A program made the translations under genes and the position numbers. Of a stretch of DNA of 64,000 nucleotides, positions 35,823 to 61,278 are shown one piece after another. The stretch comes from Paramagnetospirillum marisnigri (GTDB taxonomy: Bacteria > Pseudomonadota > Alphaproteobacteria > Rhodospirillales > Magnetospirillaceae): NCBI RefSeq assembly GCF_001650715.1, contig NZ_LWQT01000077.1, forward strand, positions 62,001-126,000, written 5' to 3'. Positions within the stretch are counted from its first letter, which is position 1, and every line of letters starts with the position of its first letter. Below the pieces are notes generated by a model, which saw only the letters and a program-made list of their open reading frames with translations, was not told where the DNA came from and ran no database searches.

Positions 35823-37070
35823 TCAACGCTGAAAGCGTATCGGCTGGCGCTTGCGGCCCCAGGTTCCGGGGCGCGGCTCAAACACTCCGGCCAATCTGGT
35901 GCCGCAGGCGGTGCAACAGCCCGTGGCGTCCAAGGCCCAGGTGGACAGCTCGTACCAGTCGCGACCGATCAGCAGGCCGCCGCAGCCCGAGCAATAGGTG
36001 GAGCCCCCCGCCGGATCGTGGACATTGCCGGTATAGACATGAAACAGGCCGTTGGCCTTGGCGATGTCCCTCGCCCGGGTCAGGGTGGCGGGCGGGGTAT
36101 TGTCCTTGTCGGTCATCTTCCAGTCGGGATGGAAGGCGGAGAAATGCACCGGCACGTCCGGCCCCAGGGCATCGGCGACCCAGCCCGACAGGGCGTCGAT
36201 CTCGGCCGGCGAATCGTTCTCGCCCGGGATCAGCAAGGTAGTGATCTCGAACCAGACCTTGGTCTCGTGCCGCAGATAGACCAGGGTCTCCTTCACCGCC
36301 TCGAGATGGCCGCCGCAGGTCTTGTGGTAGAAATCCTCGGTGAAGGCCTTCAGGTCCACATTGGCGGCATCCATATGGGCATAGAACTCGGCCCGGGCCT
36401 CGGGCTTGATATAGCCCGCCGTCACCGCCACCGTCCCGATGCCCAGGGCGTGGCAGGCCTGGGCCACGTCCACGGCGTATTCCAGGAACACCACCGGGTC
36501 GTTATAGGTGAAGGCCACCGAGCGGCAGCCGAAATGCTGGGCCGCCTGGGCGATCAGCTCGGGCTCGGCGGCGTCGTTCAGCTTGTCCAGTTCGCGCGCT
36601 TTGGAGATATCCCAGTTCTGGCTATCCTTACATATTGCATCTATTTGATTTTGTGTGATATTTTCGTTCAATAACTGTGTGTAAACTGTGTGTGAATTTT
36701 GAGATTCTTGAACAAGCGTTTTCAATAATTTATCCTGCTCTTTTGAAATGCTCCAATTTTGGCAAAATTTGCAGGTTAGATTGCAGCCGATGCTTCCTAA
36801 AGACAGGATCGGTGTTCCCGGTAGAAAATGATTTAAAGGCTTCTTTTCAATGGGATCGATGCAAAACCCACTGCTGCGTCCGTATGTCGTCAGAACAATT
36901 TCGTCGTGTATTGCAGCTCGGTTGAAGCAGAGGCCAAGCTGCCCATTATGGAGCTTGCACTCTCGGGGACACACATCACACTGAATGCGACCGTCACCCA
37001 GCCTCGTCCAGTACTTGGTTCTGCGAAACACTTGGAGACAATCTCCCGCTCGGAAAAGAGGCTTCGCCAC
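35823..37070 (-). CDS. amrS: Chimeric AmmeMemoRadiSam radical SAM enzyme (element-derived 5' half, host 3' half)
   Basis: This 415-residue radical SAM protein has the cluster motif CNLTCKFC (CX3CX2C) in the part encoded by the element, downstream of 36616. Residues from NWDISKARELD onwards are host sequence. The element half is about 80% identical (68 of 85 residues by eye) to the stranded host fragment at 60961-61278. Right after the cluster motif, 47 extra residues separate two copies of NWxISK; they are translated attachment-arm DNA. The frame is unbroken, so a complete but enlarged enzyme could be made. The GTG start at 37070 is uncertain; a later GTG (VFRRTKYW) is possible. AmrS acts with AmrA/AmrB, encoded at 62012. 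Confidence 0.8.
   Translation of the reverse strand: MAKPLFRAGDCLQVFRRTKYWTRLGDGRIQCDVCPRECKLHNGQLGLCFNRAAIHDEIVLTTYGRSSGFCIDPIEKKPLNHFLPGTPILSLGSIGCNLTCKFCQNWSISKEQDKLLKTLVQESQNSHTVYTQLLNENITQNQIDAICKDSQNWDISKARELDKLNDAAEPELIAQAAQHFGCRSVAFTYNDPVVFLEYAVDVAQACHALGIGTVAVTAGYIKPEARAEFYAHMDAANVDLKAFTEDFYHKTCGGHLEAVKETLVYLRHETKVWFEITTLLIPGENDSPAEIDALSGWVADALGPDVPVHFSAFHPDWKMTDKDNTPPATLTRARDIAKANGLFHVYTGNVHDPAGGSTYCSGCGGLLIGRDWYELSTWALDATGCCTACGTRLAGVFEPRPGTWGRKRQPIRFQR
36616..36622. other. attL core
   Basis: ttctggc is shared with 60983-60989. The inferred empty site reads AGTTCTGGCAGAACT, a 7-bp inverted repeat around one base, typical of a tyrosine-recombinase core. Here the left part AGTTCTGGC is followed by element sequence tatcc. 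Confidence 0.8.
36673..36693. other. Left arm-type integrase binding repeats
   Basis: Two direct copies of AACTGTGTGT start 11 bp apart (36673 and 36684), 51 bp inside the left core. They match the repeats at the right end (60815-60902), as expected for integrase arm sites. On the other strand they are translated as HTVYTQLL within the amrS chimera. Confidence 0.65.
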
Positions 37071-37140
37071 CGCAAAAGCTTACCACATTCTGATGCCGCC
37101 CTGACCTTGAATCCGCGCTTGAATGCCCGCGCTCAAATCC

Positions 37141-37171
37141 CCCAATTTTGATATCCTGCTCAAAATTTGGG
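37141..37171. promoter_or_regulatory. Inverted repeat upstream of the Dam-like gene
   Basis: cccaattttga and tcaaaatttggg form an almost perfect inverted repeat around an 8-nt loop, ending 8 nt before the ATG at 37180. It lies in the divergent amrS/methylase gap and covers the methylase ribosome site, so it could be an operator or translational hairpin. Confidence 0.45.
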
Positions 37172-37179
37172 AAATCACG

Positions 37180-38091
37180 ATGCCGGGATTGCCAAGCAAG
37201 CCTCCCATTACGCCACTTCAATGGTACGGCAGCAAACGCCGTTCATTAGATGTGATTGATCGCTGGCTGCCACCCCATGTGATGGAATATCGGGAACCGT
37301 TTGTTGGTGGCGGCGCATCGTTCTTGCTAGCTCGCTTCAAATATCCGGACGTGCCGTTCTGGATCAACGACAAGGATCAGCGGGTGACATGCTTCTGGAC
37401 AATCGTGCGCGATATGCCGGACGCCCTAGAAGCCAATATCACAGGGCTTGTAAAGCAAGCTCGGATGGATGAGGCCGCAGCTGTATCCCTATACACCGAG
37501 CAATTCGCCGCACAGCAAAGCGACAATGTGCTGGAAGCGGCTACAGCCTTCCTCATCATCAACATGTGGTCTTTCAATGCACACATGGGTGCGAAGGACT
37601 TTCGGTGGGACTATGTCCAAAAGCCGCGCGATTACCTGTTCCCCCGCATCCGAAAAGCCCATGCCTTGCTGCAAGGCGTGACCATAACCAATGGCGATTA
37701 CGCGCCCTTGCTGTCCGAGCCTGCAAAAGGCCGAAGCGATGCAGGTGTCGTCGTCTTCATGGACCCGCCCTATGACGGAACGGAAACCATCTACAAGGAA
37801 GGTGCTGGATTCAATTTTGATGCCTTCTATGAGGCGGTGCTCGCCAGCAAGCATAACTGGATCATCACCCACTCTTTGCGCCGCTTTTGGCCCCGAGCCT
37901 TCAAGCTGTTCTACTTTGGTGCAAGCCGGACCTGGAAGGTGGACGCCTTCCTGGATGGCGCCGGATCAAACAAGCGCGACGAGCGCCTCATCGCAAATTT
38001 CGATCCATCATCAGACCTTTGGAGATTGTATGGCGCTCGCATAAACTCGGACGGCACCATCGCCGTGCCGCATCGGGCTGGGGGAGAATGA
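37180..38091 (+). CDS. DNA adenine methyltransferase (Dam/D12 class)
   Basis: The 303-residue protein has the D12-class order: a QWYGSKRR start, the SAM motif EPFVGGGASFLL (about residue 42) and the catalytic DPPY in VVFMDPPYDGTETIY (about residue 195). It should methylate adenine N6 in a short target; specificity is unknown. The ATG at 37180 was preferred over 37123 because an inverted repeat lies between them. The next gene begins 3 bp after its stop, so it heads the operon that carries the 7-deazaguanine genes. A solitary phage- or island-type methylase is the simplest reading. Confidence 0.85.
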   Translation: MPGLPSKPPITPLQWYGSKRRSLDVIDRWLPPHVMEYREPFVGGGASFLLARFKYPDVPFWINDKDQRVTCFWTIVRDMPDALEANITGLVKQARMDEAAAVSLYTEQFAAQQSDNVLEAATAFLIINMWSFNAHMGAKDFRWDYVQKPRDYLFPRIRKAHALLQGVTITNGDYAPLLSEPAKGRSDAGVVVFMDPPYDGTETIYKEGAGFNFDAFYEAVLASKHNWIITHSLRRFWPRAFKLFYFGASRTWKVDAFLDGAGSNKRDERLIANFDPSSDLWRLYGARINSDGTIAVPHRAGGE

Positions 38092-38094
38092 CAC

Positions 38095-39522
38095 ATGGGA
38101 TTGAGCGCAAATCAGACCAAGCTGAAGACTGCGGCCAACGGATCTTACGTAAAAAGCGTTGAGCTGGAGGCCGACGCAGAGAAGTGCTTGAACCAGGCAT
38201 TAACTGAGGCATTTGCCTTCGGCTATACCTTCGCGCTCGACCAAAGCGAATTGTTCAAGCTGGTTCAGGATATGGGGGCAAAGCCTTCTCGCAACGACAC
38301 CAGTTGGTGGACTGATGTGGTGAAGGCCTGCTTTGGAACAACGAGCACGACCCAAAAGAACACCTACGAGTTCCCCAGCGCTGCCGCCATTTCCAAATAC
38401 CAGACCATTCTCGCCTATGCCCACTACAAGCAGTGGAACGAAAGTGCGTTAGGGGATGAACTGGCATCACGCTCTGCGACGGAGATTTACCGTGAGGCCG
38501 GGCAATGCCAAGAGTTTGTCCAGTCACAAGGACGCGGCAAGGCCCGGTCCAGCGACAAGGGATTGCTCAAGCGACTAGACAATGCTTGCACACACTCCTT
38601 TGACGAGAATGCCATCACCTTGTCGGCAGCGGACCTTGATGCCCTTTTGAACCCCAATGATGATGGATTGGGAGCTCTCCTGATCAAGCGAGAGAATGGC
38701 AAGGTGAAGCTTTGGCGAGCACCGCTCGATGCCACTTATATCCGCAAGGCCATCAACGAATATGCTGTCGTTGAAAAAATTCGCAAACCGCTAACAGATG
38801 CATTGCGGATGCGCTCCCTGCTTCCAAAAGGAGCCCAGCGCCACATGCAGTTTGAGCACGACGGAGATGCCACCAAAGTAACCCTGTTTGGGGCTTTGAA
38901 AGGCTGTGGTGCTATCCACTTCGTCACCCAAAAGCTGGATGTGCCTGATGGCGTAACCTTTGACGAAAAGGGTATCGATCGACTGCTTGGGTTGTCCCTC
39001 GGCGTCGGTGATGAGCGGTTTGTTTGGGAGGTGCAGGAAAGCGCCGTTAAAGTTTACGCCAAAGATCAAGAAGCTTTGCCAGACCCGGAAGCTATCTACA
39101 AAGTGCTCCAGTACGAAGGTGTGAATTGGAGCGCCCCGGATGGCACAGAGCAGATTGACGGTTGGCGTGTCGAAGCTGTGCCCGCCCCGCCGACCGCCCC
39201 AAACTTTGTGTGCGAGAGCACGGTGGCCATTAACGACGACACCGCTAGAAAGCTAACGGTGGAAGTGGGCTGGAAGGGAAAATTCACGACGATCAGCTCT
39301 TCTGAAGGCTCCCTGCACGTTAAGTGCGCGAAGAATCAATTGAAGCTGCCGCTGGATGGATTACCTGATCAGCCTTCGGTGAAGCTGGTTCAAGGACAAG
39401 TTGGGAGGGCGGTCAAACAGATTGATGGTATTCCATCTTTCGGCATATGTGACGGGGGTGTTTTCATCAGCGGCCCCCACAAGGAAGTCGCGGTTACATT
39501 CACGATTCCAAGCATGGGGTGA
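38095..39522 (+). CDS. Unknown 475-aa protein between the methylase and the DpdA-like gene
   Basis: It resembles no family I recognise. It has no signal peptide or membrane segment. The N-terminal 180 residues are helical (AEKCLNQALTEAFAFGYTFALDQSELFKLV), the middle has mixed strands (RHMQFEHDGDATKVTLFGALKGCGAIHFVTQ), and the C-terminal 150 residues look beta-rich (FTTISSSEGSLHVKCAKNQLKLPLDG). Spacing of 3 bp on each side places it firmly in the operon. A role as partner or target-recognition subunit of the base-exchange enzyme is only a guess. Confidence 0.7.
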   Translation: MGLSANQTKLKTAANGSYVKSVELEADAEKCLNQALTEAFAFGYTFALDQSELFKLVQDMGAKPSRNDTSWWTDVVKACFGTTSTTQKNTYEFPSAAAISKYQTILAYAHYKQWNESALGDELASRSATEIYREAGQCQEFVQSQGRGKARSSDKGLLKRLDNACTHSFDENAITLSAADLDALLNPNDDGLGALLIKRENGKVKLWRAPLDATYIRKAINEYAVVEKIRKPLTDALRMRSLLPKGAQRHMQFEHDGDATKVTLFGALKGCGAIHFVTQKLDVPDGVTFDEKGIDRLLGLSLGVGDERFVWEVQESAVKVYAKDQEALPDPEAIYKVLQYEGVNWSAPDGTEQIDGWRVEAVPAPPTAPNFVCESTVAINDDTARKLTVEVGWKGKFTTISSSEGSLHVKCAKNQLKLPLDGLPDQPSVKLVQGQVGRAVKQIDGIPSFGICDGGVFISGPHKEVAVTFTIPSMG

Positions 39523-39525
39523 GCC

Positions 39526-41028
39526 GTGGCCTATTTCGAGGACATGCCCAACCTGCCGCAGCGTTCCATATTCACCCCCAGCGTTTCGACAACCTATTTC
39601 GATAAGGTCAGCCGGAAGCGCACGGAGATACGGCAGGAAAACATCCCGCCGCGACTGAAATCGATGGAGCAGCTTTGGTGGTGGAACAAGGGGGGTGAAA
39701 CGCGCCCATTCTTCCACTACCCCTATTTCATGTACAGCGCGGGCCATGCCGAACTGGACCTGACGAAGGCGGCAACCAAGGAAGCAGCCCTGTTCAAAAG
39801 AGATCGCTCATCTAGCGTTCTCATTACAGATAGCGGCGGCTATCAGGTGGCAAAGATTCCTGATTTCTTTGATTGGGACTCCCCGGAGAAAATCGACAAG
39901 AAGCGCGAGCGGCTTTTTACTTGGATCGATGCCGTTGCCGATTATTCGTTGTCGCTTGATGCCCCTACCTTTGGCGCTTCAGCCGATCACAAGGCGCTCA
40001 AAACCCCTGCTGACTGCTTGGCGTTCACCCTTGAAAATCTGGCGTTCTACGAAAGCCGTCCCAACAAAAATGAAAACGTTCGCTTCCTGCATGCCATTCA
40101 TGGCTCCACCATTGATGACCAGACGAAGTGGTATGAAGCCGTAAAGAGGTATCGCCATTACGGCTGGGCCTTTGGAGCCTCAACCGAGGAAACACCGTTT
40201 CGGAACCTGAAGAACCTTCTTCGGATGTTGATGTTTTTGAAGCAGGAAGGGGCTTTAGAACACAGCCCTCATGTCCATGTCCTGGGCATTGGAGTCAGCG
40301 CCGCTGCGGTCATGTACTCCTATATCCAGATTATGATACGCCGAAGCGGCATCCCGAAGTTTCAAATCACCTTCGATGTATCCACCGCCTTTCGGAAGGC
40401 CGGGGAATCTGGGCTTCTGTTCACCGATTTTGAGCGGTCTATTTTGGGGCCAAATCTGGAGACAACGCGAAAAGCCGTTGTTCCCAAAACGGGCTGGGAA
40501 GACTGGGACCTTCCAATGGGGCATGACGATTTGCCGAAGCAGCTGGACTTCGAGAGCCCTGTGTTTGGTTATGCTGAAGACAAAGACCGCATCATGCCGA
40601 AGCATCTTCAGCCTTGGAGCGACGGGATATCGCTATCCTTGATGATGGCCCAGAACCTGTGGCTCCAAACCGAGATGTACAAGGATGCCCACGACCGATT
40701 TTTTGTCGCGCTGGAGCGCCTGCCTGTTGAACGGAGCCTCTCCGATCAAATGCTGAACAGGCTTCTCATGCGTGTGGCCAATCACTTTGACCAGCACAAA
40801 GAGCTTCAAAGCATTCAAGAAGATGTCTGGACGATGATGTATCTGATCCATGCAGAAGGCATCATGCCACCGGGCTGGCGGCGGGGTGATCGGGGCATGT
40901 CGTTGGAATACTTCATGGCCATCAAGTCGATGATTGATGAGGTTTTCGACGCCAAAAATCCATTCGCTGTTTTGGACAAATATGAGGCCGAGTTGAGCTC
41001 CTATCTGGGCGGCATGCTGGTTTCGTAA
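39526..41028 (+). CDS. DpdA-like tRNA-guanine transglycosylase paralogue (DNA 7-deazaguanine insertion)
   Basis: This 500-residue TGT-fold protein starts at GTG 39526. Visible TGT landmarks are VLITDSGGYQVAK (the active-site Asp, residue 102), YSLSLDAPTFG, WAFGAS and ITFDVSTAF, where the nucleophilic Asp would lie. I see no CxCxxC zinc motif of ordinary TGT. Divergent TGTs beside queD, queE and folE are DpdA enzymes, which swap guanine for preQ0-type bases in DNA. The operon supports this strongly. Substrate and product base are inferred. Confidence 0.78.
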   Translation: MAYFEDMPNLPQRSIFTPSVSTTYFDKVSRKRTEIRQENIPPRLKSMEQLWWWNKGGETRPFFHYPYFMYSAGHAELDLTKAATKEAALFKRDRSSSVLITDSGGYQVAKIPDFFDWDSPEKIDKKRERLFTWIDAVADYSLSLDAPTFGASADHKALKTPADCLAFTLENLAFYESRPNKNENVRFLHAIHGSTIDDQTKWYEAVKRYRHYGWAFGASTEETPFRNLKNLLRMLMFLKQEGALEHSPHVHVLGIGVSAAAVMYSYIQIMIRRSGIPKFQITFDVSTAFRKAGESGLLFTDFERSILGPNLETTRKAVVPKTGWEDWDLPMGHDDLPKQLDFESPVFGYAEDKDRIMPKHLQPWSDGISLSLMMAQNLWLQTEMYKDAHDRFFVALERLPVERSLSDQMLNRLLMRVANHFDQHKELQSIQEDVWTMMYLIHAEGIMPPGWRRGDRGMSLEYFMAIKSMIDEVFDAKNPFAVLDKYEAELSSYLGGMLVS

Positions 41029-41041
41029 ATCGCGGGATTTT

Positions 41042-41061
41042 TCTTCGCATGAGAAGATAAT
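41042..41061. promoter_or_regulatory. Candidate shared operator, copy 1
   Basis: The pattern TCTTC-N6-GAAGATAAT sits between the DpdA-like gene and queD. The same pattern with the same 6-nt spacing is found at 58001-58020 before another element gene. This suggests one element-encoded regulator for both. Confidence 0.45.
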
Positions 41062-41129
41062 TTGATGCGAGGTGATTTTGCCGCCGTTCCGTGGCACCAT
41101 GCTCCATATGCCAAATTGCCGGGGGGCGC

Positions 41130-41741
41130 ATGTCACGATCACCAACTCTCATTCATCGTGAGATCGGCATTGATTGCGGACACCGCGTCCCCGATCACGG
41201 ATCGAAGTGCCGTTCTCCGCATGGTCACAGGTATCGCGTAATCGCCACCTGTGCAGGCCACCTTGTTCAGGACTTTGGCCATCCTGAACACGGCATGGTC
41301 ATCGATTTCGGCAATGTCAAAGCCTACATGATGGATATTTTTGACGCCATCTTTGACCATGCGTTCATCGTCAGCGTTGCCGATGCGGTAATGATGGAGA
41401 TGTTCTATCCAGGTGAAGACCCTAAAGCCATTTTAGATCTTTACCAGGAATCAATCGCAGAGCAGTTGGACGTGTACTGCTCCACGGCGGATAAGAAGCC
41501 AATCCGGCTTCCTCGCACCTGCTACAGCGAACAAGACCCGGACGGCATGAAGGTCGTGCCCGTTCAGTATTCCCCGACCGCTGAGAACCTTGCAGCCCAT
41601 ATGTTCGAAATGCTGGACCAGCCTTTGAAGGCGCACTTCGAGAAGACACCAATTCGACTCGTCAACATCCGCCTCTTTGAAACGCCTAACGGCTGGGTCG
41701 ATCACACGGCTGACGGCTTCAATCCGGGGATTATGGGATGA
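41130..41741 (+). CDS. queD: 6-carboxytetrahydropterin synthase (QueD), extended form
   Basis: The 203-residue protein starts at ATG 41130 behind ggggggc. It belongs to the PTPS/QueD family: zinc histidines in CGHR and SPHGHRYRV, then VIDFGNVKAYM, DHAFIV and SPTAENLA with the catalytic Glu. It is longer than the usual 120-140 residues through insertions in the middle and the C-terminus. It converts dihydroneopterin triphosphate to CPH4, the second step to preQ0. It overlaps queE (ATGA). Confidence 0.85.
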   Translation: MSRSPTLIHREIGIDCGHRVPDHGSKCRSPHGHRYRVIATCAGHLVQDFGHPEHGMVIDFGNVKAYMMDIFDAIFDHAFIVSVADAVMMEMFYPGEDPKAILDLYQESIAEQLDVYCSTADKKPIRLPRTCYSEQDPDGMKVVPVQYSPTAENLAAHMFEMLDQPLKAHFEKTPIRLVNIRLFETPNGWVDHTADGFNPGIMG

Positions 41742-42352
41742 GCTACCAAGTCAAAGAAATCTTCTACAGCTTGCAGGGTGAAGGGGCGCACAGCGGACGG
41801 CCTGCAATCTTTTGTCGCTTTTCAAACTGCAATCTGTGGAGCGGCAAGGACGAGGATCGGGCCAGCGCCATCTGCAAGTTCTGTGACACGGATTTCGTTG
41901 GCGGCGATGAATACACCTTGGATTGCTTGGTTCAGGCAATTGCAGCGAAATGGCCGGGCGGCGGGAAACCCTATGTCATTTGCACAGGCGGCGAACCGCT
42001 TCTCCAAGTTGATATCCCGCTCGTTGATGCCCTGCATAACGCTGGATTTGAAGTCGCTGTGGAAACCAATGGTACAGTCGGCAAGCATGACGTTGCAGCC
42101 AAGCTGGACTGGGTGTGTGTGAGTCCCAAGGCCGATGCTCGTGTGAAGTTAGATCAAGGGCACGAGTTGAAGCTTGTCTACCCCCAGGCTGAAAACCATC
42201 CGTCCGATTTTGAACGAATGGGTTTCAAGCACTTCTTCCTTCAGCCCTGCGACGGTGTTGAAGGCAGCATGAAAATGGCAATCGACTACTGCTTGGCTCA
42301 CCCGCATTGGAGCCTCAGCCTACAGACCCATAAGATTGGAGGCTTCGAATAG
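41738..42352 (+). CDS. queE: 7-carboxy-7-deazaguanine synthase
   Basis: The 204-residue radical SAM enzyme begins YQVKEIFYSLQGEG. It has the QueE-type cluster motif CX14CX2C, from CNLWSGKDED to ICKFC (about residues 31-49), then ICTGGEPLLQ and VETNGT. It makes CDG from CPH4 for preQ0 synthesis. It overlaps queD by 4 bp and lies 1 bp before folE, so the pathway genes are translationally coupled. Confidence 0.92.
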   Translation: MSYQVKEIFYSLQGEGAHSGRPAIFCRFSNCNLWSGKDEDRASAICKFCDTDFVGGDEYTLDCLVQAIAAKWPGGGKPYVICTGGEPLLQVDIPLVDALHNAGFEVAVETNGTVGKHDVAAKLDWVCVSPKADARVKLDQGHELKLVYPQAENHPSDFERMGFKHFFLQPCDGVEGSMKMAIDYCLAHPHWSLSLQTHKIGGFE

Positions 42353-42353
42353 C

Positions 42354-43223
42354 ATGGCCGAAAATGATGCCGCCGATCAGCTTTCTGAACCCGTGAAAAA
42401 GTCCCGAAAGAAGCCTGCACCGCCAAAGGAGGCTGGCGGCATTCCGATCATCTATCGCGGCCCGGAAGGCTTTGTCGGCCTGAACAAGAATGACCGCACT
42501 GGTTCGTGGGAGGCCATGTGCAAGCCCGAAGGCACGACCCGTCATGTGACGATTACGCTCGCGGCCAAGTCGGAGGAAGATGCCAAAAGCGAAGCCATCT
42601 TTGCCCTGAAGTACGATTCACAGCACCGCATTCATCGACGCCCAACACGTGAAGAGGCCATGGAGGCCATCAAAACGCTCATTGCCTATACGGGGGACAA
42701 TCCATACCGCGAGGGGCTGCGCGGAACGCCTGACCGCGTAATTCGAGCTTACGATGAGTTCTTCGCAGGTTACCACTCCACCGCAGCCGAGGTCTTGAAG
42801 ACCACCTTCGCGGAAACGGGCTCCTACGATGAGATGGTGACGCTTACGGACATCGAGTTCGACAGCCATTGCGAACACCACATGGTGCCGTTCACCGGGG
42901 TGGTGCACATCGCCTACATTCCCGACAAGACAGTTGTCGGGATCAGCAAGTTGGCCCGGCTTGTGGAGATTTACGCACGGCGGCTGCAAATTCAGGAAAA
43001 GATGACGACGCAAATCGCCGATAAGCTTCACATGGTTTTGAAGCCCAAAGGCGTTGCCGTAGTTATCGCAGGCCAGCACATGTGCATGACCACGCGAGGC
43101 GTCAAAAAGAAACGGGTCAAGATGATAACCAGCACCATGACCGGCGTGTTCCGAGAGGACCCAAAGGTTCGTTCGGAATTTATGAATTTGATCGGGAATC
43201 CGAAAAGCGGGATGGAAAAATGA
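42354..43223 (+). CDS. folE: GTP cyclohydrolase I with an N-terminal extension
   Basis: The 289-residue product has a normal type I cyclohydrolase core from about residue 95 ([21 protein letters not shown]; zinc ligands in [10 protein letters not shown] and [10 protein letters not shown]). It supplies dihydroneopterin triphosphate to QueD. The first 94 residues are extra: a Lys/Pro/Ala-rich lead and then a small domain ([20 protein letters not shown]) of unknown role. It overlaps the queC remnant by 4 bp (ATGA). Confidence 0.9.
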
Positions 43224-43590
43224 CTGGAGCACTCGTTCTTTTCAGCGGCGGCCAAGACAGCGCCACCTGCCTTGCCTGGGCGAAGCGCAAATTCGAAAAG
43301 GTTGTCACAGTTGGTTTCGACTACGGACAAGCCCAGGATTGAACTGGAATGCCGAAAGGTTGTTCTGGGCAAGCTCAACCCTGGCGGTGAAGACCACCTG
43401 CTCAATCTGGACATCATTAATCAGCTTGCGGATTCGGCGCTGAGGAGCTTATCGACATCATCCGGCTTGACACCCATACCTGCTACAAAGGCGACCATAC
43501 CCACATGCATGATTGGGGTTATGGAATGTGGGGAATGTCCGAATTGTAAATTGCGGGCTGAGGGCTGGAAGATGTGGAGGTCAAAGGGCT
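43220..43590 (+). pseudogene. queC: Decayed 7-cyano-7-deazaguanine synthase
   Basis: The start is intact ([17 protein letters not shown], the PPi loop), but the frame stops after GQAQD near 43340. [14 protein letters not shown] continues in another frame to NQLADSAL. It then jumps to EELIDIIRLDTHTCYKGDHTH (from about 43443), skipping the roughly 100 residues that normally lie between. Zinc-ligand residues CGECPNCKLRAEGW appear in a further frame. At least two frameshifts and one internal deletion mean no active QueC. A chromosomal queC elsewhere would be needed for preQ0. Confidence 0.85.
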
Positions 43591-43604
43591 GACGCCTAAA
43601 ATCC

Positions 43605-44097: not shown

Positions 44098-44676
44098 TCA
44101 GGCCAACTCAGCCGCCTTCACCATCATCTCTTCGTTGACCGTGACATAACGCTGGGTGGTTTGGATGCTTTGATGTCCAGCAAGCTGTTGAAGCACGAAC
44201 ACGGAGACACCCTTGTTTGCCAGCGTCGTCAAATAAGAACGACGCCCACTATGCGAGCGTGCATCCGCCAATCCCGCTTCGTCGTAAATGCGGCGGAACA
44301 GCATTACCATCGTGGTCGGCGTGAAGTGTCCACCCTTTTGACTGCGGATCAGCGGCTTGCGTTCGTCCGTCCATTCCCGCTGTTCAAGATAACGAGCGAT
44401 CTCGCGCTGGAGCTTGGTGTTGATGAACACCGTGCGACCACGGTTGCCCTTGGTTTGTGACGCGGACAGGTGGATGCGATCACGAACCGCACAGCCTTCA
44501 TTAACAACGTCCATAATTTTCAAGGCCGCGATTTCACCGGCCCGCATGCCTGCCCAGTGCGACAGCAACACAGCAAGGCGATTACGGGTGGAAAGGATGC
44601 CGTGCTGGGCGACCACAGCCAGGACGCGCTTCATCTCGGCTTCGGACAGGACTTTGGCTTGCGACATGACGAACAC
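44098..44676 (-). CDS. Short tyrosine recombinase (catalytic domain only)
   Basis: The 192-residue protein has the catalytic set R (MRAGEIAALK), HSGRRS (HxxR), AGHQSIQTTQRYV (His and Tyr nucleophile) and a likely Lys in TKGNRGRTV. It lacks the usual N-terminal core-binding domain, like solo integrases that are chromosomal or cassette-linked. It lies 118 bp from one of two 43-bp direct repeats that flank the next two genes and may have moved that cassette. It is distinct from the main integrase at 59212. Confidence 0.8.
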   Translation of the reverse strand: MFVMSQAKVLSEAEMKRVLAVVAQHGILSTRNRLAVLLSHWAGMRAGEIAALKIMDVVNEGCAVRDRIHLSASQTKGNRGRTVFINTKLQREIARYLEQREWTDERKPLIRSQKGGHFTPTTMVMLFRRIYDEAGLADARSHSGRRSYLTTLANKGVSVFVLQQLAGHQSIQTTQRYVTVNEEMMVKAAELA

Positions 44677-44793
44677 CCATAATGTTATGTTTTCATCCTA
44701 TGGGTAGTGTCACATCACCTTTTGCCTTGGTCTCCCCGATATCGGGCTTTGAAAATGGCGGAAATCCGCGCTTGGTTATGGTTTTGCTATTCT

Positions 44794-44836
44794 ATAACTT
44801 TCCGGAACGCGGGTGCTTCAGCTTGGAGATGAGGCG
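44794..44836. repeat. 43-bp direct repeat, left copy
   Basis: It shares the 20-mer ATAACTTTCCGGAACGCGGG with 47277-47296, then GCTT-GAGATGA-GCG at the same spacing. The two copies bracket a 2.5-kb segment holding two genes. The 44677-44957 gap contains nothing else recognised. Confidence 0.75.
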
Positions 44837-44957: not shown

Positions 44958-45941
44958 TCAGTCTTGCGGAAAATCTACCCCGACGAGCAACAATGCGGCA
45001 CGCTCGACATGTGGCAGTACTGCCTTGACGGCCTCCGCACCGTCCGGGAAGCTCTCAAAGATCATATCCTTCTCCCCAGCATGAACGATGGCACAGCGAA
45101 TCTGATAGACCAGAGCCGCGCCCGTTTTCCACTTCTCTCCGCCAACTTTCTTCTTCGTGACCCTGCGAAATAGGGCGGTCGCGAACTGGTTTACGTTGTT
45201 GAGTTGGTCGAGTGCCGTCCAGCAGGCTTCGAAAGCATCTTTTTGGGTTTCCGCCAAGCCGATGATTTGGTTCATCTCGGATTTGAGAGCTTCGGCTGCA
45301 TCGTCCAATGCAGCGTTGGGCTCGGCATCGAAACTTGCGATCAATTTAATCTTTATCTCCGCGAGAAATCTCGCCTCCATCACGCGATAGAGCTCGAGAA
45401 ACCGGAACTTCAGCGGCGATGTGCGGAAAGAGTTGGCCAAGCAGTTCAGCGCAACCTTATTCAGAAGGGAGCTGACGTTCGCGTCAATAATCGCAAGCGT
45501 GGCACCGTTGAAGAGGATGCTGTCGCCAGCCATAGGTTGGTCCACAACACGGATTATTTTGCGGAAATCGTTTGACGCAACAGCTGGGCCGATGGCGATT
45601 TCCACACCTCCCGCAAGGACGATGGCGTGCCGATCCGGCTTTGAAGCTGCTACTGCACGAACGAGCGCTATTTCGATTGCTGTGGGCAGCCCATGATCTG
45701 TGCCAGGAGGGAAGCCAAAAATCTCGGCCTCCCCCTCCGTCTTATGGGCTACGGTCCAATAAAACGGCCTCGTGAGATCCCGGGGATCAATACTTACATC
45801 GCGCGGGAAATCTCCACCTGCGAGAATACGGGCAGCTTCAGAAGCCGCCTCCACTCCCAGCTCCAGCGTCCCTAATTGCAAAGGACGTGTCGGATCCACC
45901 TCCTCGGCGGACGCGATTGCAAGTGCCTCAAGAAGATACAT
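44958..45941 (-). CDS. Unknown protein with HEPN-like C-terminal motif
   Basis: The 327-residue protein has no signal peptide or membrane span. Near the C-terminus, YQIRCAIVHAGEKD (residues 279-292) has the Rx4H spacing and setting of HEPN ribonuclease or nucleotidyl-transfer toxins, preceded by helical segments. The N-terminal half is unassigned. It starts 3 bp after the ParB/DGQHR-like gene ends, so the two form a pair, and the pair is flanked by direct repeats. A toxin or defence effector role is plausible but unproven. Confidence 0.6.
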   Translation of the reverse strand: MYLLEALAIASAEEVDPTRPLQLGTLELGVEAASEAARILAGGDFPRDVSIDPRDLTRPFYWTVAHKTEGEAEIFGFPPGTDHGLPTAIEIALVRAVAASKPDRHAIVLAGGVEIAIGPAVASNDFRKIIRVVDQPMAGDSILFNGATLAIIDANVSSLLNKVALNCLANSFRTSPLKFRFLELYRVMEARFLAEIKIKLIASFDAEPNAALDDAAEALKSEMNQIIGLAETQKDAFEACWTALDQLNNVNQFATALFRRVTKKKVGGEKWKTGAALVYQIRCAIVHAGEKDMIFESFPDGAEAVKAVLPHVERAALLLVGVDFPQD

Positions 45942-45944
45942 GAT

Positions 45945-47319: not shown

Positions 47320-47323
47320 CAGG

Positions 47324-48628: not shown

Positions 48629-48636
48629 ATTTCCCC

Positions 48637-55925: not shown

Positions 55926-56118
55926 AGGCGACGGCTCCCAATCCAACGGCTCTCAGGGCGCACGAAAGGCTTCAAGTGCGCTTATTGTTTGTACAAGAGC
56001 CGGGGAATTCCGTCATCAACCGGATTTGCGGTGAGCGAAGAATGGACGGGGGGCTGTGGGATATGTCTGAACGCACACAATTACTATTGCGAGTATCGTC
56101 TACTAATGAATTCGATAA

Positions 56119-56139
56119 ATACCCTTACACCGAGGGTAT
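56119..56139 (+). promoter_or_regulatory. Hairpin covering the ribosome site of the 56144 gene
   Basis: ataccct and agggtat form a 7-bp hairpin with a 7-nt loop, ending 4 nt before the ATG. The likely Shine-Dalgarno gaggg is in the stem, so translation may be held down unless the hairpin opens. Confidence 0.5.
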
Positions 56140-56143
56140 CAAC

Positions 56144-56509
56144 ATGCGTCTTTACGAAATCATCCAAACACCATTATCAGCCGATCTGTCCTACGACGTG
56201 AAATTCAACAGGCTGAAAGTGCGTAAGAAGCCGAGCCGGTCTGTCGATCACGAAAATGGACGTGTCGTGGCCATAGCCAACCAGCCACCAAAGCTGACAT
56301 TGAAGCACGTCCACAGAATGAAGCTGTTGCGTCGTCGCTACCTGGAAGCGCAGCAAAAGCTGACTGCATTTCGTGGATTGATGTATGGGGGACATGCACA
56401 AGCCGAGCAACTTGAACTTGGTGACATGCAATCCCGCATATCTCGACGTGAAAAACTACAGGCCAAGCTGGACGACATGGCTATGCGTTATGTGAAAAGG
56501 ACGGTTTGA
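56144..56509 (+). CDS. Hypothetical protein of the element (121 aa)
   Basis: The 121-residue basic protein begins MRLYEIIQTPLSADLSYDVKF and is largely helical in the C-terminal half (LLRRRYLEAQQKLTAFRGLM, then RREKLQAKLDDMAMRYV), possibly coiled coil. The ATG at 56144 was preferred because of the hairpin-embedded ribosome site just upstream. Its stop lies in the loop of a terminator. No family was recognised; it could be phage-derived. Confidence 0.55.
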   Translation: MRLYEIIQTPLSADLSYDVKFNRLKVRKKPSRSVDHENGRVVAIANQPPKLTLKHVHRMKLLRRRYLEAQQKLTAFRGLMYGGHAQAEQLELGDMQSRISRREKLQAKLDDMAMRYVKRTV

Positions 56510-56521
56510 GGCCGTCCTTTT
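56495..56521. terminator. Rho-independent terminator, probably bidirectional
   Basis: aaaaggacgg and ccgtcctttt form a perfect 10-bp stem with a 7-nt loop. The A and T tracts serve both strands; the convergent genes at 56144 and 56531 end here. Confidence 0.85.
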
Positions 56522-56530
56522 CGTTGCATG

Positions 56531-56806
56531 TCAAACCGTCACGTCCACTCGCCAAATCCGCTTGATGCCCAAATGGCGCATTTTGAGGAGCAGGATGTTT
56601 TTCTCGGGCAAATGGCCCAGGTAATAGCTGCTGTTGGCATATTGGTCGGGATCAACCTCATGACCGAACATCCCCATTAGCTCTCGCTTATAAATTGGAC
56701 ACCACGTTTTCTTGTATCCGCGAGGAACCACTTCATCCATGAACTCCTTGTGGGAGCGTACTGGGGTAAATTCAATAAGATAACCGTAACTTTCCCTGGA
56801 TTTCAT
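56531..56806 (-). CDS. Hypothetical protein (91 aa)
   Basis: The 91-residue protein starts MKSRESYGYLIEFTPVRSHKEF; no family was recognised. Its ATG overlaps the stop of the larger gene upstream (ATGA), so the two are co-translated. Aromatic-rich and soluble. It may be phage-like. Confidence 0.55.
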   Translation of the reverse strand: MKSRESYGYLIEFTPVRSHKEFMDEVVPRGYKKTWCPIYKRELMGMFGHEVDPDQYANSSYYLGHLPEKNILLLKMRHLGIKRIWRVDVTV

Positions 56807-57348
56807 AGTGGCACCCTCCCATATGGTGCAGCTTGGGAGCCACGTTCAGCTTGAAATTTATTGGATACAATCCCACCAACCTGCGCTGCCTGCTGCTTGC
56901 GAACACCGCTGATTCCCAAAGCGTTGTAATCATCCTGCCATACATGTGTGTGCCGACGATTGCCGCTCTTGTTTAACTCCTTGTGCATAAACCATGATAT
57001 TCGCCAGTCATCATCTTCCCAGTGGATGAAAATCAGTTCCGGGCAGCTCCTTGCTGGATCGAGCAAGCAAGTCCAAGGTGGAGCCTCCATGCCATACAGC
57101 TTGGGTTTGAAATCAGCTATCACCATGTGATCGCTGCTTCGCTCCTTATTGATGCTTGGCATGCAGGCCATCAGCTCCGCTGTGATGTGGGCGGGCGCAT
57201 AGGTTTGTAGATACCAATGATCCGGCGTGTGGAAGTTTAGATAAAAAGCTTCAACGCTATCAACCTCAACGGATATGCTGTAGCCCTTGTGGAATTTTGA
57301 ACCCTTCTTGGGGTTCGTGTTGTACCAAAGTTTGAATATTTGTTTCAT
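56803..57348 (-). CDS. Hypothetical protein (181 aa)
   Basis: Starting at ATG 57348 behind a textbook aaggagg, the 181-residue product begins MKQIFKLWYNTNPKKGSKF. It is rich in Trp, Tyr and His (FHTPDHWYLQTYAP, FIHWEDDDWRISWFMHKEL). No family was recognised. It is paired with the 91-residue gene. A terminator hairpin lies just upstream at 57381-57407, so its promoter is either very short or the hairpin is a leader structure. Confidence 0.6.
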   Translation of the reverse strand: MKQIFKLWYNTNPKKGSKFHKGYSISVEVDSVEAFYLNFHTPDHWYLQTYAPAHITAELMACMPSINKERSSDHMVIADFKPKLYGMEAPPWTCLLDPARSCPELIFIHWEDDDWRISWFMHKELNKSGNRRHTHVWQDDYNALGISGVRKQQAAQVGGIVSNKFQAERGSQAAPYGRVPL

Positions 57349-57380
57349 TGAAATTGCCTCCTTGTAATTCAAACGTGGAA

Positions 57381-57407
57381 AAGGGCGACGCTGGAAACGT
57401 CGCCCTT
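57381..57407. terminator. Strong hairpin upstream of the 57348 gene
   Basis: aagggcgacg and cgtcgccctt form a perfect 10-bp stem with a 7-nt loop; gtttt follows on the + strand. Because it lies 33 nt ahead of the minus-strand gene start, it may be a leader attenuator for that gene rather than a plain terminator. Confidence 0.65.
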
Positions 57408-57540
57408 GTTTTGATTAACTGGCAGGCAATGAAACTGGCCTTGCTGGCACTTGTATTTATCTGTGGATGCAATTCCGCATGCATGAAATCTGCGGGTTGA
57501 GCTGAAATTTTATCAACACCTATTTCCCCTACACATTCAC

Positions 57541-57734
57541 GTCCTGTGTTCCCGTCGCGTGTTCCTGTCATGTGTTCCGAAGGAACATCCCGTAGGGAAG
57601 CGTCATGTGTTTGTCGTCGTGTGTTTATCCATGAGGCCCAGGCCTGCACCAAGGCAGAGTGGTGGGCTCCAAACACCCGACTTTGGGCTTCCGCCCTGTT
57701 CAACACATGACGAACACGCGACTGAACACCTGAC
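57541..57734. repeat. Inverted clusters of iteron-like repeats
   Basis: On the + strand GTCctGTGTTC, GTCgcGTGTTC and GTCatGTGTTC follow at 13-bp steps (57541-57579), with two degenerate units at 57602-57626. About 75 bp on, the minus strand carries GTCagGTGTTC, GTCgcGTGTTC and GTCatGTGTTg (57700-57734). Unit and order are alike in both clusters. Such arrays bind replication initiators, partition proteins or regulators. Confidence 0.65.
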
Positions 57735-57937
57735 ATAAATTGCTCTTTGAAATAAATTAAATTCATTTCCTTATCCAGTTAATCAAGCAGGTCAATGCGC
57801 GATATTCAACACTAGACATCCCTTAAAGGCACGTCGACTGAACCGCATTGACCTACATTTATATTTAGCTTTCGATACGTGAATCAGGCCAATTGAATTC
57901 GCCATGGTCAGCATTTTTTTGGGATTTCGGGAAAATG

Positions 57938-57955
57938 GTGGCCAATTGGCCACCT
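57938..57955. promoter_or_regulatory. 18-bp perfect palindrome
   Basis: GGTGGCCAATTGGCCACC lies 139 bp ahead of the 58094 gene and could be an operator for an element regulator. Confidence 0.45.
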
Positions 57956-58000
57956 TTGAACCCATGTATGAAGCCAGTTAGGCTGATATCTCTAAAATTA

Positions 58001-58020
58001 TCTTCACGCATGAAGATAAT
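58001..58020. promoter_or_regulatory. Candidate shared operator, copy 2
   Basis: TCTTC-N6-GAAGATAAT, as at 41042-41061. Here it extends to a 10-bp inverted repeat (attatcttca cgca tgaagataat, 57997-58020) about 75 bp before the 58094 gene. Confidence 0.5.
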
Positions 58021-58093
58021 TCCCTTTCAGGGGAGACCCATGAATCCAATTGGGTGACGTTAGCTCCAGTGCAATCACGCCCTGGAGGCAATC

Positions 58094-58549
58094 ATGTCCA
58101 TCAAGAACCTCGAATTTTCCACCATTGCTCCGCCCAAGGTTTCGCGGAATGCGATGAATACCAAGACCCGTGCCCGCTCCAAGTTCATCGCCGCCGTGGT
58201 CAATCAGATCGGTGCCGTTGAGGCGGCGATTTCGGGTAAGAGCTTCGTCGTCACCAAGATGCGGCGCACTACCGATGAAGATGGATCGCACCGTCAGGTG
58301 AGCCATGATGTGCAGGTGCGTCCCTGGTGGTTCCTCCAGGGTGATGTTTTCTATCTGGCTCCCAAGTACGCCAATCAGCCGCTGACGCTCGGTGCGAACA
58401 AGTCCAAGCCCACAGTGGTGTGCGGCAAGAGCCTGTCCGATGTGGCCGCCACGCTAAACACCGTCAAGGCCGCCGCTGAAGCAGGTGAGCTGGATGATGT
58501 GCTCGAAGCTCAGGCAATCACCGCTCGTAAGCGAATGACTAAGAAGTAG
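58094..58549 (+). CDS. DUF6641-like protein
   Basis: The 151-residue basic protein starts MSIKNLEFSTIAPPKVSR after a good ggagg site. The order of RARSKFIAAVVNQIGAVEAA, VRPWWFLQGDVFYLAPKYANQPLTL and ATLNTVKAAAEAGELDDVLEAQA fits the DUF6641 family, seen on plasmids and islands of alphaproteobacteria. The function is unknown. It has its own promoter region with a candidate operator and a clean terminator, so it is a single-gene unit. Confidence 0.65.
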   Translation: MSIKNLEFSTIAPPKVSRNAMNTKTRARSKFIAAVVNQIGAVEAAISGKSFVVTKMRRTTDEDGSHRQVSHDVQVRPWWFLQGDVFYLAPKYANQPLTLGANKSKPTVVCGKSLSDVAATLNTVKAAAEAGELDDVLEAQAITARKRMTKK

Positions 58550-58558
58550 AGGAACCAT

Positions 58559-58576
58559 AGGGGGCTTCGGCCCCCT
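58559..58576 (+). terminator. Rho-independent terminator after the DUF6641-like gene
   Basis: gggggc-ttcg-gccccc stem followed by ttttcttttt. Confidence 0.85.
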
Positions 58577-58596
58577 TTTCTTTTTGGAGCCATCGC

Positions 58597-58923
58597 ATGC
58601 AACGCATCCGAATCATCCGCGAATTGAATGATCAGCTCCGACAGTATGGCATCGGCGGCAAGGTCTACATCACATCCGGCATACAGGCCCTTGATGAGTG
58701 GCTAGGCCGCGCCATTATCACCACCGTCCGTGAGTTCGATCAATTCGATCAAAGCAACGATCCATATGGCGAGCATGACATGGGTGCGGTGGATGTAGCA
58801 GGTACAAAGGCCATGTGGAAAATCGACTACTACGATCCGTCGATTACCTACGCCAGCGATGATCCTGCTGATCTGCAAAAAACCGTTCGCGTGCTCACGA
58901 TCATGCTCGCCGATGAATATTGA
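58597..58923 (+). CDS. DUF3768 protein
   Basis: The 108-residue protein matches the DUF3768 pattern: IRELNDQLRQ, GGKVYITSGIQAL, VREFDQFDQSNDPYGEHDMGAVDV, WKIDYYDPSITYASDDPADL and RVLTIMLADEY. The family is common on alphaproteobacterial plasmids and islands near replication or transfer genes; its role is not known. It lies between two terminators. Confidence 0.85.
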   Translation: MQRIRIIRELNDQLRQYGIGGKVYITSGIQALDEWLGRAIITTVREFDQFDQSNDPYGEHDMGAVDVAGTKAMWKIDYYDPSITYASDDPADLQKTVRVLTIMLADEY

Positions 58924-58974
58924 ATAGTGCCAAAAGAGCAGATCAGAAAATTTTAATACTTAAAATTCATGAAG

Positions 58975-58994
58975 CGCCGCTGTTGCGGCGTTTT
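58975..58994 (+). terminator. Rho-independent terminator after the DUF3768 gene
   Basis: cgccgc-tgtt-gcggcg stem followed by ttttgtgtttt. Confidence 0.8.
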
Positions 58995-59041
58995 GTGTTT
59001 TCACCGGACAGGGCATCCCTGCCGCACAGCCTCGCTCAAAA

Positions 59042-59135
59042 GCGCGTTTTAACGCTCATACAACGCGATTTGCGGAGGGCCCGCTGCCAATCCATCTTCG
59101 ATAGCCGATGTCGCTGTATGAGCGTTAAAACGCGC
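59042..59135. repeat. Long perfect inverted repeat
   Basis: Two perfectly complementary 21-nt arms (59042-59062 and 59115-59135, starting gcgcgttttaacgc) enclose a 52-nt GC-rich loop. It lies in the 288-bp gap between the DUF3768 gene and the end of the integrase gene. No gene was recognised there. It could be an RNA hairpin, a recombination site or a strong two-way transcription block. Confidence 0.8.
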
Positions 59136-59211
59136 GAACTCGAAATCTGCGGGGCGCCAGCTAGCGATGAGGCATCAAGGCAAATGCCAGGCACTTGCAA
59201 AGCTGCTGCAC

Positions 59212-60801
59212 TTATTTTCGGGTCCGGACATCTGGAACGTCATTTTCGATTCGAATGAAGTACTCGCCATCCCTCGGTGAACCTCCAGCCTTCTTGTCCA
59301 CCTTTTGCAGCCTGACTAGCACCGGTGCAGTTTTCTCTTTATTGACCCGTGTGATCATGCGTGCCTGGAAGCTATCCAAGCCTTCCGGGATATTCTTCCT
59401 TACGGAAGTGAGCACAGTGGCTTTTTGCATATTAGAGACATGACCATAGTGCTTCTCGATCATCTCCACGCTGGTTCCCATGTTTTTTGCCAGCGTGTAA
59501 GCATCCACATTATCCCCATACAATAGGCGGAAGGTCGCGTAGGTGTGCCTGAAGGAATAGGCTGAAAATTTCCTGCCGAATCTGTCATGGGTTATTTTCG
59601 AAAACTCAAAAGCTTTTTCGACAGGCCTCTCTATTGCGCCTAACTGCGTTCCGTTAAAATTGCAAAACACCCATGAATCTGGCTCACAAGGCAATTGATG
59701 TTTCTTTTGAAATCGGATCAATTCCTCAACCACACTCCAGCACACAGGCATTGGGACGGTATCCCTCTCACCGGTCTTTCTCGCGGGATTGACGTGTATG
59801 ACAAGTTGATTTTGGCCGCTTTCGTCCTTAAATGCGGAAAAGTCCCTCCACCGCAAGGTCTTGGCCTCTAGCGGACGAAGCCCGCTATGCACTAGCAACT
59901 CACAAAAAAGGCGAGCCATCGTGCGGGGGACAAAGTGCTGTGGGCGAGGCGATTCCCGCTCCCATTCTTTGGCTTTCTTTAGAAATTTGACCCACTGCTG
60001 GTGTTCCAGAGCTGGGCGGCGATTTCTTTCCAGCTTTACCGGGACCTCAAGCTGTGGCTTGCGGGCAATAAACTTATTGCGCTCCGCCCACTTGAAAAAT
60101 TGGGAAAGCGCATCTTTTTCGGCATACAGCAATGCCGAGGATGGCTCGACCGCAACCTTACCTGAAAGACGCTGAAGTTCGTCCGAATGACTGCGCCAGT
60201 AATTAATCCTCCAGCTCCAATATTTTTCCACATACAGGTCATCAATGAGATCGAATGCCCTTTCATCGAAATACTCGAAGAAATACCTCCGAGCAAATCC
60301 CTCGAATGTTTTAATCCTATTTTGCGTATAGTACACACCTCGCTCATCCAGCCATTTCTTCCAGATTCGGCTGAATTTGTGCCTCCCGTAAGGGATGCCG
60401 TGTCTCTCTTTGACCTCCACTTCTCGCTTTAAGTCCCTTGCCGCACTTAAAGCCTCAGCCAGATCATTGTGGCGCGTACTTTTTACAAGCCAATCCCCTT
60501 TGGGAGTTTTAATCCGAGCTTGCCACGGCCCGTTCACCGTATCGGTGCGCCGGTAGAGCAGTATGTCGCCATTTTCGAATGAATGTTTTTCCGGGGATAC
60601 GACTTGGTGCTCAGCCAGAACTTCAAAACTGTAAAGCTCAAGAGCGAATGCCTTGGCGACATCAATGTCACTAGACTTAGTGGAGCGCCGCAATGAGACC
60701 CCACCCTTTAAGCGAAGCTTGCACTGCCATACGCCGCGCTTACTAGCATCCGGACGCCTGTAAAGCGTTATCTCACCATCGCTTAGAACGACCTGCTCCA
60801 T
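59212..60801 (-). CDS. Tyrosine-type site-specific integrase of the element
   Basis: From ATG 60801 (MEQVVLSDGEIT) the product has 529 residues. N-terminal DUF6538-like repeats (ITLYRRPDASKRGVWQCKL, ILLYRRTDTVNGPWQARI) are followed by a SAM-like core-binding domain and a catalytic domain with SGLRPLEAKTLRW (Arg), YSFRHTYAT (HxxR) and MIEKHYGHVS (Tyr). A TTG at 60924 would add 41 residues, but that stretch holds the arm repeats and abuts a tataaaat -10-like box, so it is more likely leader DNA. It should catalyse insertion into, and excision from, amrS. Confidence 0.88.
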   Translation of the reverse strand: MEQVVLSDGEITLYRRPDASKRGVWQCKLRLKGGVSLRRSTKSSDIDVAKAFALELYSFEVLAEHQVVSPEKHSFENGDILLYRRTDTVNGPWQARIKTPKGDWLVKSTRHNDLAEALSAARDLKREVEVKERHGIPYGRHKFSRIWKKWLDERGVYYTQNRIKTFEGFARRYFFEYFDERAFDLIDDLYVEKYWSWRINYWRSHSDELQRLSGKVAVEPSSALLYAEKDALSQFFKWAERNKFIARKPQLEVPVKLERNRRPALEHQQWVKFLKKAKEWERESPRPQHFVPRTMARLFCELLVHSGLRPLEAKTLRWRDFSAFKDESGQNQLVIHVNPARKTGERDTVPMPVCWSVVEELIRFQKKHQLPCEPDSWVFCNFNGTQLGAIERPVEKAFEFSKITHDRFGRKFSAYSFRHTYATFRLLYGDNVDAYTLAKNMGTSVEMIEKHYGHVSNMQKATVLTSVRKNIPEGLDSFQARMITRVNKEKTAPVLVRLQKVDKKAGGSPRDGEYFIRIENDVPDVRTRK

Positions 60802-60814
60802 CCCCGTCCCGCAC

Positions 60815-60902
60815 ACCTGTGTCAAAAACTGTGTTGGCGCAAAACGAGCATATTGGATCTGACTGAATTTGCAAAGATAAATCTGTGCGTAAAACTGTGC
60901 GT
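60815..60902. other. Right arm-type integrase binding repeats
   Basis: Four related 10-mers occur as two pairs with 12-bp steps: ACCTGTGTCA/AACTGTGTTG (60815, 60827) and ATCTGTGCGT/AACTGTGCGT (60881, 60893). They match the AACTGTGTGT pair at the left end. They lie between the integrase ATG and the right core, so integrase could also repress its own promoter. Confidence 0.6.
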
Positions 60903-60960
60903 TGAAATTTTCATCCACACACAAATTTTATAACACGCTGATATTAATGGATTTTATATG

Positions 60961-61278
60961 TCAGTAATCATCTGCCAGGATTTTCTGGCAGAACTTGCAG
61001 GTCAGGTTGCAGCCCGCCGTGCCGAAGGACAGGACGGGGGTGCCGGGCAGGAAATGGTTGAGCGGCTTCTTCTCGATAGGGTCGATGCAGAACCCCGACG
61101 AGCGGCCATAGGTGGTCAGCACCATGGCCCCGTCCCAGGCGGCGCGCACGAAGCACAGGCCGCGCTGGCCGTCATGCAGCCTGCATTCGCGCGGGCAGAC
61201 ATCGCATTGCACCCGGCCGTCGTCCAGCCGATGCCAATGGCGTCCGGGAAAATGCGAGCCTTCGAGGGTCGTGGTCAT
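60961..61278 (-). pseudogene. amrS: Stranded 5' fragment of host amrS
   Basis: The 105-codon frame from ATG 61278 encodes VQCDVCPRECRLHDGQRGLC through CNLTCKFCQ and then leaves amrS at the right core, ending KILADDY. It keeps host-like GC and codon use. It has the iron-sulfur CX3CX2C motif but lacks the rest of the barrel, so it is not an enzyme. The original promoter probably still drives it. Confidence 0.9.
60983..60989. other. attR core
   Basis: ttctggc, partner of 36616-36622. Here it continues rightwards into host sequence agaactt, and it is part of an 8-bp inverted repeat (tctgccag-gatttt-ctggcaga, 60971-60992). Confidence 0.8.

Follow-up and report, generated by a model that had tools for sequence, protein, structure and literature searches.

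The gene amrS of Paramagnetospirillum marisnigri, which encodes a radical S-adenosylmethionine (SAM) enzyme, is split by a 24.4-kb island that appears to repair the gene it interrupts. The window, a stretch of 64,000 nucleotides (NCBI RefSeq assembly GCF_001650715.1, contig NZ_LWQT01000077.1, positions 62,001 to 126,000 of the forward strand), contains the island at positions 36616-60989, with amrS on the minus strand. Very probably it is a site-specific integrative element that rebuilds amrS by means of its own 5' part and a translated arm of its attachment site (attP). We infer that the element still moves and that the chimeric product works as AmrS.

The same 7 bp, TTCTGGC (GCCAGAA on the gene strand), are present at both joints. 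One copy of this core (36616-36622) marks the junction between the 3' part of the host amrS and the element, the other (60983-60989) the junction between the element and the displaced host 5' remnant, and the core-to-core distance is 24,367 bp. When the flanks 35823-36622 and 60990-61278 are joined, they give an unbroken AmrS of 362 codons that reads CKFCQNWDISK, and the proposal of the first-pass annotation that the two host pieces rejoin at this core is thereby borne out. The host 3' part (35823-36622, minus strand) shows a 98% match to residues 91-362 of the joined AmrS. The remnant (60983-61278, minus strand) consists of 98 codons followed by the element-encoded KILADDY and a stop; positions 60961-60982, formerly counted as part of the host fragment, are element DNA. 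A stop within a few codons is also found in genome G042, one of two more species of the genus that carry the island, while in the other, G039, the frame continues at least through the stretch inspected. The island has a G+C content of 0.53, against 0.67 and 0.69 for the left and right flanks. A tRNA scan and an Rfam search of 35500-62500 gave no matches.

The element carries an amrS 5' part of its own at 36756-37031 (minus strand), with 92 codons up to FCQN. It contains the motif CNLTCKFC, which we take to be the cysteine motif for the iron-sulphur (Fe-S) cluster of radical SAM enzymes, so that the metal-cluster motif is included in the exchange, as had been claimed. The Pfam Radical_SAM match begins at residue 95 of the 415-residue chimeric open reading frame (ORF). 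Translation from the (A/G)TG start at 37031 yields a chimera of 402 residues, matching TIGR04337 (AmmeMemoSam_rS) with an expectation value (E) of 2.7e-189. A sequence search of the PDB with the chimera gave no match at E 0.01. The GTG at 37070 is not a likely start for the chimera, because it is set off from the relatives by a 1-base indel, whereas they too have the start at 37031. The 5' parts of element and host are 78% identical in protein and 69% in DNA, and the G+C content at third codon positions is 0.53 in the element part and 0.86-0.87 in the host pieces. The earlier description of a second 5' half, about 80% identical, with different codon use and joined in frame, thus stands except that the joint is not flush; what is replaced is also less than the whole front half, namely residues 1-98 of the 362 of the host AmrS, or about a quarter.

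Comparison of 88 codons of the element-borne 5' parts between the three islands of the genus shows 4-8 synonymous and 0-1 non-synonymous differences, with a ratio of non-synonymous to synonymous divergence (dN/dS) of 0-0.03. This pattern indicates strong purifying selection on the element half, which would be difficult to account for if the chimera were not in use. In none of the three genomes was a full amrS other than the chimera found, and that of P. marisnigri yielded no second copy elsewhere.

Where an empty site reads CKFCQNWDISK, the chimera reads CNLTCKFCQN-(44 residues)-SQNWDISK. The additional segment is an in-frame linker of 44 codons (36624-36755, minus strand) between FCQN and SQNWDISK, and with the second SQN the net gain is 47 residues. 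Constraint on the linker between islands is weaker than on the 5' part, with dN/dS of 0.24-0.52. It contains, on the plus strand, the paired repeat CTGTGTGTAAACTGTGTGT (36675-36693), and a counterpart, CTGTGCGTAAAACTGTGCGT (60883-60902, plus strand), lies on the integrase side of the island. Both pairs are kept in G039 and G042. The pattern CTGTGNGTAAAN{0,1}CTGTGNGT has two matches in the 64 kb and none in 100 shuffles. The single repeat ACTGTGTGT, allowing one mismatch, has 5 matches against 4.8 expected; it is uninformative alone, and only the paired form is informative. Paired repeats that flank a core on both sides are the typical look of the arm sites of tyrosine integrases, and the repeats found here are probably such sites. 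Most simply, then, the linker peptide HTVYTQ would be arm-site DNA that happens to be translated.

An intact integrase gene adjoins the attachment junction. It lies at 59212-60801 on the minus strand and encodes a tyrosine-type integrase of 529 residues from ATG 60801, with matches to Pfam Phage_integrase (3e-8) and phrog_1 (1e-29). The listed ORF has 570 residues from TTG 60924; the ATG is probably the true start, because G039 has a stop within the extra N-terminal part. From the right core, the TTG is 58 bp and the ATG 181 bp away. The frame is intact in G039 and G042 as well, with dN/dS of 0.09-0.20.

In the circular form, attP would most likely be ordered as integrase side, core, linker arm and element amrS half. 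The tyrosine integrase would recombine GCCAGAA where amrS encodes FCQN, immediately after the cysteine motif for the Fe-S cluster. Integration would strand the 98 codons of the host, together with the DNA upstream of them, on the integrase side, while the start, 5' half and attP arm of the element would end up in front of the host 3' part and be read through in frame. Arm DNA with the probable integrase binding repeats would then be translated as the 44-residue linker, and excision would restore the native amrS. One DNA stretch appears to be maintained both as a recombination site and as coding sequence.

Empty sites, which the first-pass annotation had proposed as a check, are common in relatives. 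In the family, 52 of 55 genomes searched have an amrS match, and in 48 of these the gene is uninterrupted and full-length, or nearly so, across the junction. The gene is split by the island in three (P. marisnigri, G039 and G042), and the remaining one, G005, is a fragment at a contig edge. The site could be read in 43 of 44 amrS genes from family, order and class, in all of which a W, Y or H comes directly after FCQN and the native sequence continues without a linker; the 44th gene, that of G152, was missed by the search pattern. The islands of G039 and G042 measure 27,297 and 17,025 bp and have the same insertion base, linker and chimera. Their integrase ends are 94% identical in nucleotide sequence to that of the window (module 56115-60982) and their left ends are common, but their middle parts are different, apart from the block 37123-43223, which G039 has as well, and from at least 44102-44798, which is shared by all three. 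Synonymous divergence (dS) is 0.07-0.15 for the element 5' parts and 0.03-0.05 for the integrases, far below the 0.53-0.58 of the host 3' parts, which indicates that the islands moved between hosts after the hosts diverged. From these comparisons the island type has recently spread horizontally.

The existence of a family of elements specialised for amrS, which had been deduced from the window, holds on a narrower scale. The integrases of G039 and G042, 98% identical to that of the window, sit at the same amrS base in two other species, whereas distant integrase relatives occur elsewhere. Outside the genus only distant relatives were found: in the family, identity is at most 34% over long stretches, with short pieces up to 60%, and among named genomes it is 25-32% in the best segment (for the best 80 of 143, records near the P. 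marisnigri genome possibly being missing). In none of 91 loci with distant relatives (about 25-34% identity) does amrS occur within the flanks fetched, which span about 1.5 kb for nine of them. No close relatives were found on plasmids (8 records), phages (1) or viral contigs (2). Since the distant relatives lie at other places, specialisation for amrS appears to belong to a small integrase clade.

Genes with an insert at the same point occur in other lineages. Of 317 genomes of the order searched with linker-spanning queries, at least 239 gave a match, and among the matches listed those spanning the linker come from eight genomes: P. marisnigri (G000), G039, G042, G171, G154, G160, G289 and G290. 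Three others (G098, G126 and G135) gave one weak match each and are not among the genomes examined. Of 385 genomes sampled from the class, 54 gave a match, and of 398 sampled from the phylum, 101 did; in both samples only the P. marisnigri genome has a linker-spanning match (0 of the 53 and 0 of the 100 others, the latter among the matches listed). These others gave at least two separate matches each, lying on either side of the linker in the rows inspected. A few genomes are common to the two samples or occur also in the order set.

In G171, a member of another family, a host 5' remnant is followed by a stretch without an integrase, measuring 2,021 bp between the two cores, and then by a chimera. 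The sequence GCCAAAACTGG is repeated at both of its joints. Its linker holds GACACACAGTACATACACA, which is repeat-like but without a regular pair, and the counterparts of the repeats in linker and element are similar to those of the window and less regular. The linker itself has weak similarity to that of the window (26 of 2000 shuffles are as good). The only sizeable ORFs of this 2-kb element are two of 167 and 248 residues (L042:7006-8248), with no Pfam or PADLOC match. In the window, G039 and G042 the internal copy of the core reads GCCAAAA or GTCAAAA in place of GCCAGAA. This recoding might be taken to shield the element's own site, but no such claim is made, because the internal copy of G171 keeps its GCCAAAA.

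In G154 and G160 the linkers are homologous to that of the window, with 13 identities over 35 aligned residues and 18 over 38, respectively (none of 2000 shuffles is as good). Here the linker-bearing amrS is the only copy, with an element-type 5' half on a 3' half of the genome's own family, and it is followed downstream, as in the window, by genes for a lysylphosphatidylglycerol-synthase-like protein and an M17 peptidase. No host remnant is present, and no match to the window integrase was found in the 35 and 20 kb read around the two genes. G160 contains the sequence SGDWD, which looks like an eroded second SQNWD core. The paired repeats were not found in either linker, as expected once recombination no longer matters. 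Both genes are probably domesticated fossils, in which the element is gone and the chimera was kept. In G289 and G290 this point is occupied by an unrelated linker, again with no remnant. Integrases in G171, G154, G289 and G290 are only distantly related (26-35%), and no relative was found in G160 or in G094, where a linker-spanning match is partial and lies at a contig edge. In this G094 gene (L168:1-300) NKDLAACKF and NKDLLACKF form a repeat, perhaps from two tandem insertions.

Other unusual copies of amrS were encountered. Decayed 5' pieces lie upstream of an intact, linkerless amrS in G086 and G262 (L044:659-817 and L045:140-241); they were not counted as fossils, and in G086 the homology seems to extend past the core. 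G257 has a second, nearly full-length AmrS paralogue (L055, C53:2275-3303), 63% identical to that of the window, with FCQNHETSK at the site.

Trees of the two halves disagree in the manner expected of chimeras. With the 5' halves, the window, G039, G042, G154 and G160 form one clade (97/90; 100/100 in a second tree, which omits the two rows G257 and G257b of the first), and in the second tree G171 joins G289 and G290 (96/84). With the 3' halves, every gene groups with its own hosts. G152 was left out of both trees. In the approximately unbiased (AU) test, a grouping of the element halves with the host genus is rejected (p 0.0075), as is a single clade of the five 3' halves from the window, G039, G042, G154 and G160 (p 9e-28).

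Taken together, the different inserts suggest that attachment-site arms are a recurrent source of protein segments, a view that we favour by a small measure. Several lineages of elements would have used the same base of amrS, each bringing a replacement for the catalytic front and each leaving its arm as an insert of about 45 residues. After loss of the element the chimera would be kept and the insert would drift, becoming lineage-specific (type A in G154 and G160, a third type in G289 and G290). In this way mobile DNA would contribute segments to conserved enzymes and afterwards disappear, and amrS stands out as a gene whose function the elements seem obliged to maintain.

Some observations weigh against the reconstruction given here. 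The core is short (7 bp). The family matches revealed no excisionase, and a single-sequence AlphaFold2 model of the chimera, with a predicted local distance difference test score (pLDDT) of 36, was discarded. A consensus promoter scan of 36900-37300 gave no match, though the scan suits only sigma-70 of the E. coli type. Only 97 columns underlie the 5' tree, in which the very long branch of G171 makes its placement uncertain. AU rejections for the 5' halves are moderate (p 0.029 for G160 with its family and p 0.029 for G154 with G153). A clade of the G154 and G160 3' halves is not rejected (AU p 0.35), which makes one shared older event possible for both.

The missing promoter match, together with a linker that breaks into the enzyme directly behind the Fe-S motif, would suit a dead relic of accidental capture, with an amrS that has been knocked out and a frame that is open by chance. 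This is improbable given that the changes in the element half are almost only synonymous, that an open frame is found in all three islands and also, though the linkers are others, in G171, G289 and G290, and that in G154 and G160 the sole copy of amrS is one with a linker. An island that takes over the regulation of AmrS, or changes its activity through the linker, for its own benefit is likewise quite unlikely: such a functional but altered chimera would agree with the new upstream region that the island supplies and with a linker held open under moderate constraint (the dN/dS of 0.24-0.52 given above), but the position of the repeats already explains the linker, and the replaced half hardly changes.

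A different objection concerns the long AmrS of G154 and G160, which might represent the ancestral donor lineage from which the element captured its half. The 5' tree alone does not decide between donor and fossil, and the stretches read around the two genes hold neither a remnant nor a relative of the window integrase. Against a donor, both genes are themselves chimeras, their 3' halves going with their own families (f22 and f23) and their 5' halves with the element; the readable f22 and f23 relatives have no linker, and the SGDWD of G160 resembles the remains of a second core. A donor lineage is therefore considered unlikely. The P. marisnigri genome is a draft of 131 contigs, in which a misjoin could be suspected, but the same arrangement is found on the single contig of 4,967,148 bases of G039 and on the contig C1 of G042 (4,825,187 bases), and an assembly artefact is refuted, with a negligible probability left to it.

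Site-specific elements are known from other protein-coding genes: e14 in icd restores the end of the gene, and it is the 3' end that is affected. Mobile DNA that leaves an in-frame peptide in enzymes is known from the rickettsial palindromic elements, which are small repeats and not attachment-site arms. Islands that restore gene ends are known; in amrS, host and element trade the central part of a radical SAM enzyme. The island shares an adjacent tyrosine integrase, identical cores with empty sites, and an in-frame 5' coding sequence of the element with the islands of the dusA/prfC kind, while its target, amrS (TIGR04337), differs from that of the dusA-associated integrase (DAI) family.

The closest parallels, going by the available portions of the papers cited here, are the islands in dusA and prfC. 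In the dusA islands (Farrugia 2015, PMC4482086; IMEVchUSA3, PMC8409611) a tyrosine integrase likewise inserts within the gene of an enzyme, close to the 5' end, and a 5' remnant is left. In these islands and prophages, 35 N-terminal residues are swapped for 35, with equal length and 61% identity, and the part replaced has no residue known to bind cofactor or tRNA (PMC4482086, PMC8409611). The amrS island, unlike them, replaces 98 residues including the Fe-S motif and adds 44 codons, probably from the attP arm, and a second SQN (47 residues in all). The dusA islands supply a promoter, as does SXT in prfC (PMC8409611). For SXT/R391 elements the attachment site (attB) similarly lies in a conserved gene, close to its 5' end, but they are conjugative, use another target, and have no arm-encoded linker mentioned in those portions (PMC2654960, PMC8409611). 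Thaumarchaeal elements also insert site-specifically inside protein genes, but affect the 3' end and not a front with a catalytic motif (PMC6563490). Among the titles and abstract openings of the top-ranked open literature, none names amrS or AmmeMemoRadiSam as an integration site.

As to its contents, the island is of the defence type, judging from family matches. No Pfam match to capsid, tail or terminase genes, or to relaxase or type IV secretion genes, was found among 25 element ORFs (shorter and overlapping ORFs were not scanned); PHROGs were compared with 10 element ORFs only. Between 44958 and 55946 (minus strand) the cargo comprises DzbB/DzbA-like, HEPN_Toprim, T5orf172, helicase and AlbA_2 genes and an MmeI-like type IIG enzyme. 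The DzbB- and DzbA-like genes were recognised by PADLOC at 44958-47102 (minus strand), adjoining the block 37123-43223 (plus strand) that is shared with G039. This block carries a Dam-like methyltransferase, two ORFs without a family match and QueD-, QueE- and FolE-like genes, and may be a 7-deazaguanine modification system. Its two unmatched ORFs have 475 and 500 residues, and dN/dS for the block relative to G039 is 0.05-0.12. The ORF at 43272-43592 (plus strand) closes with a stretch that corresponds to no more than the C-terminus of QueC.

Outside the island, genes in the neighbourhood of amrS include one for a Memo-AMMECR1 fusion (62012-63382) and the lysylphosphatidylglycerol-synthase-like gene (34752-35798). 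A further ORF of 192 residues (44098-44676, minus strand), which comprises just the catalytic domain of a tyrosine recombinase, occurs in each of the three islands and is strongly constrained, with dN/dS of 0.04-0.07. Its dS is about tenfold above that of the integrase, which points to a different history.

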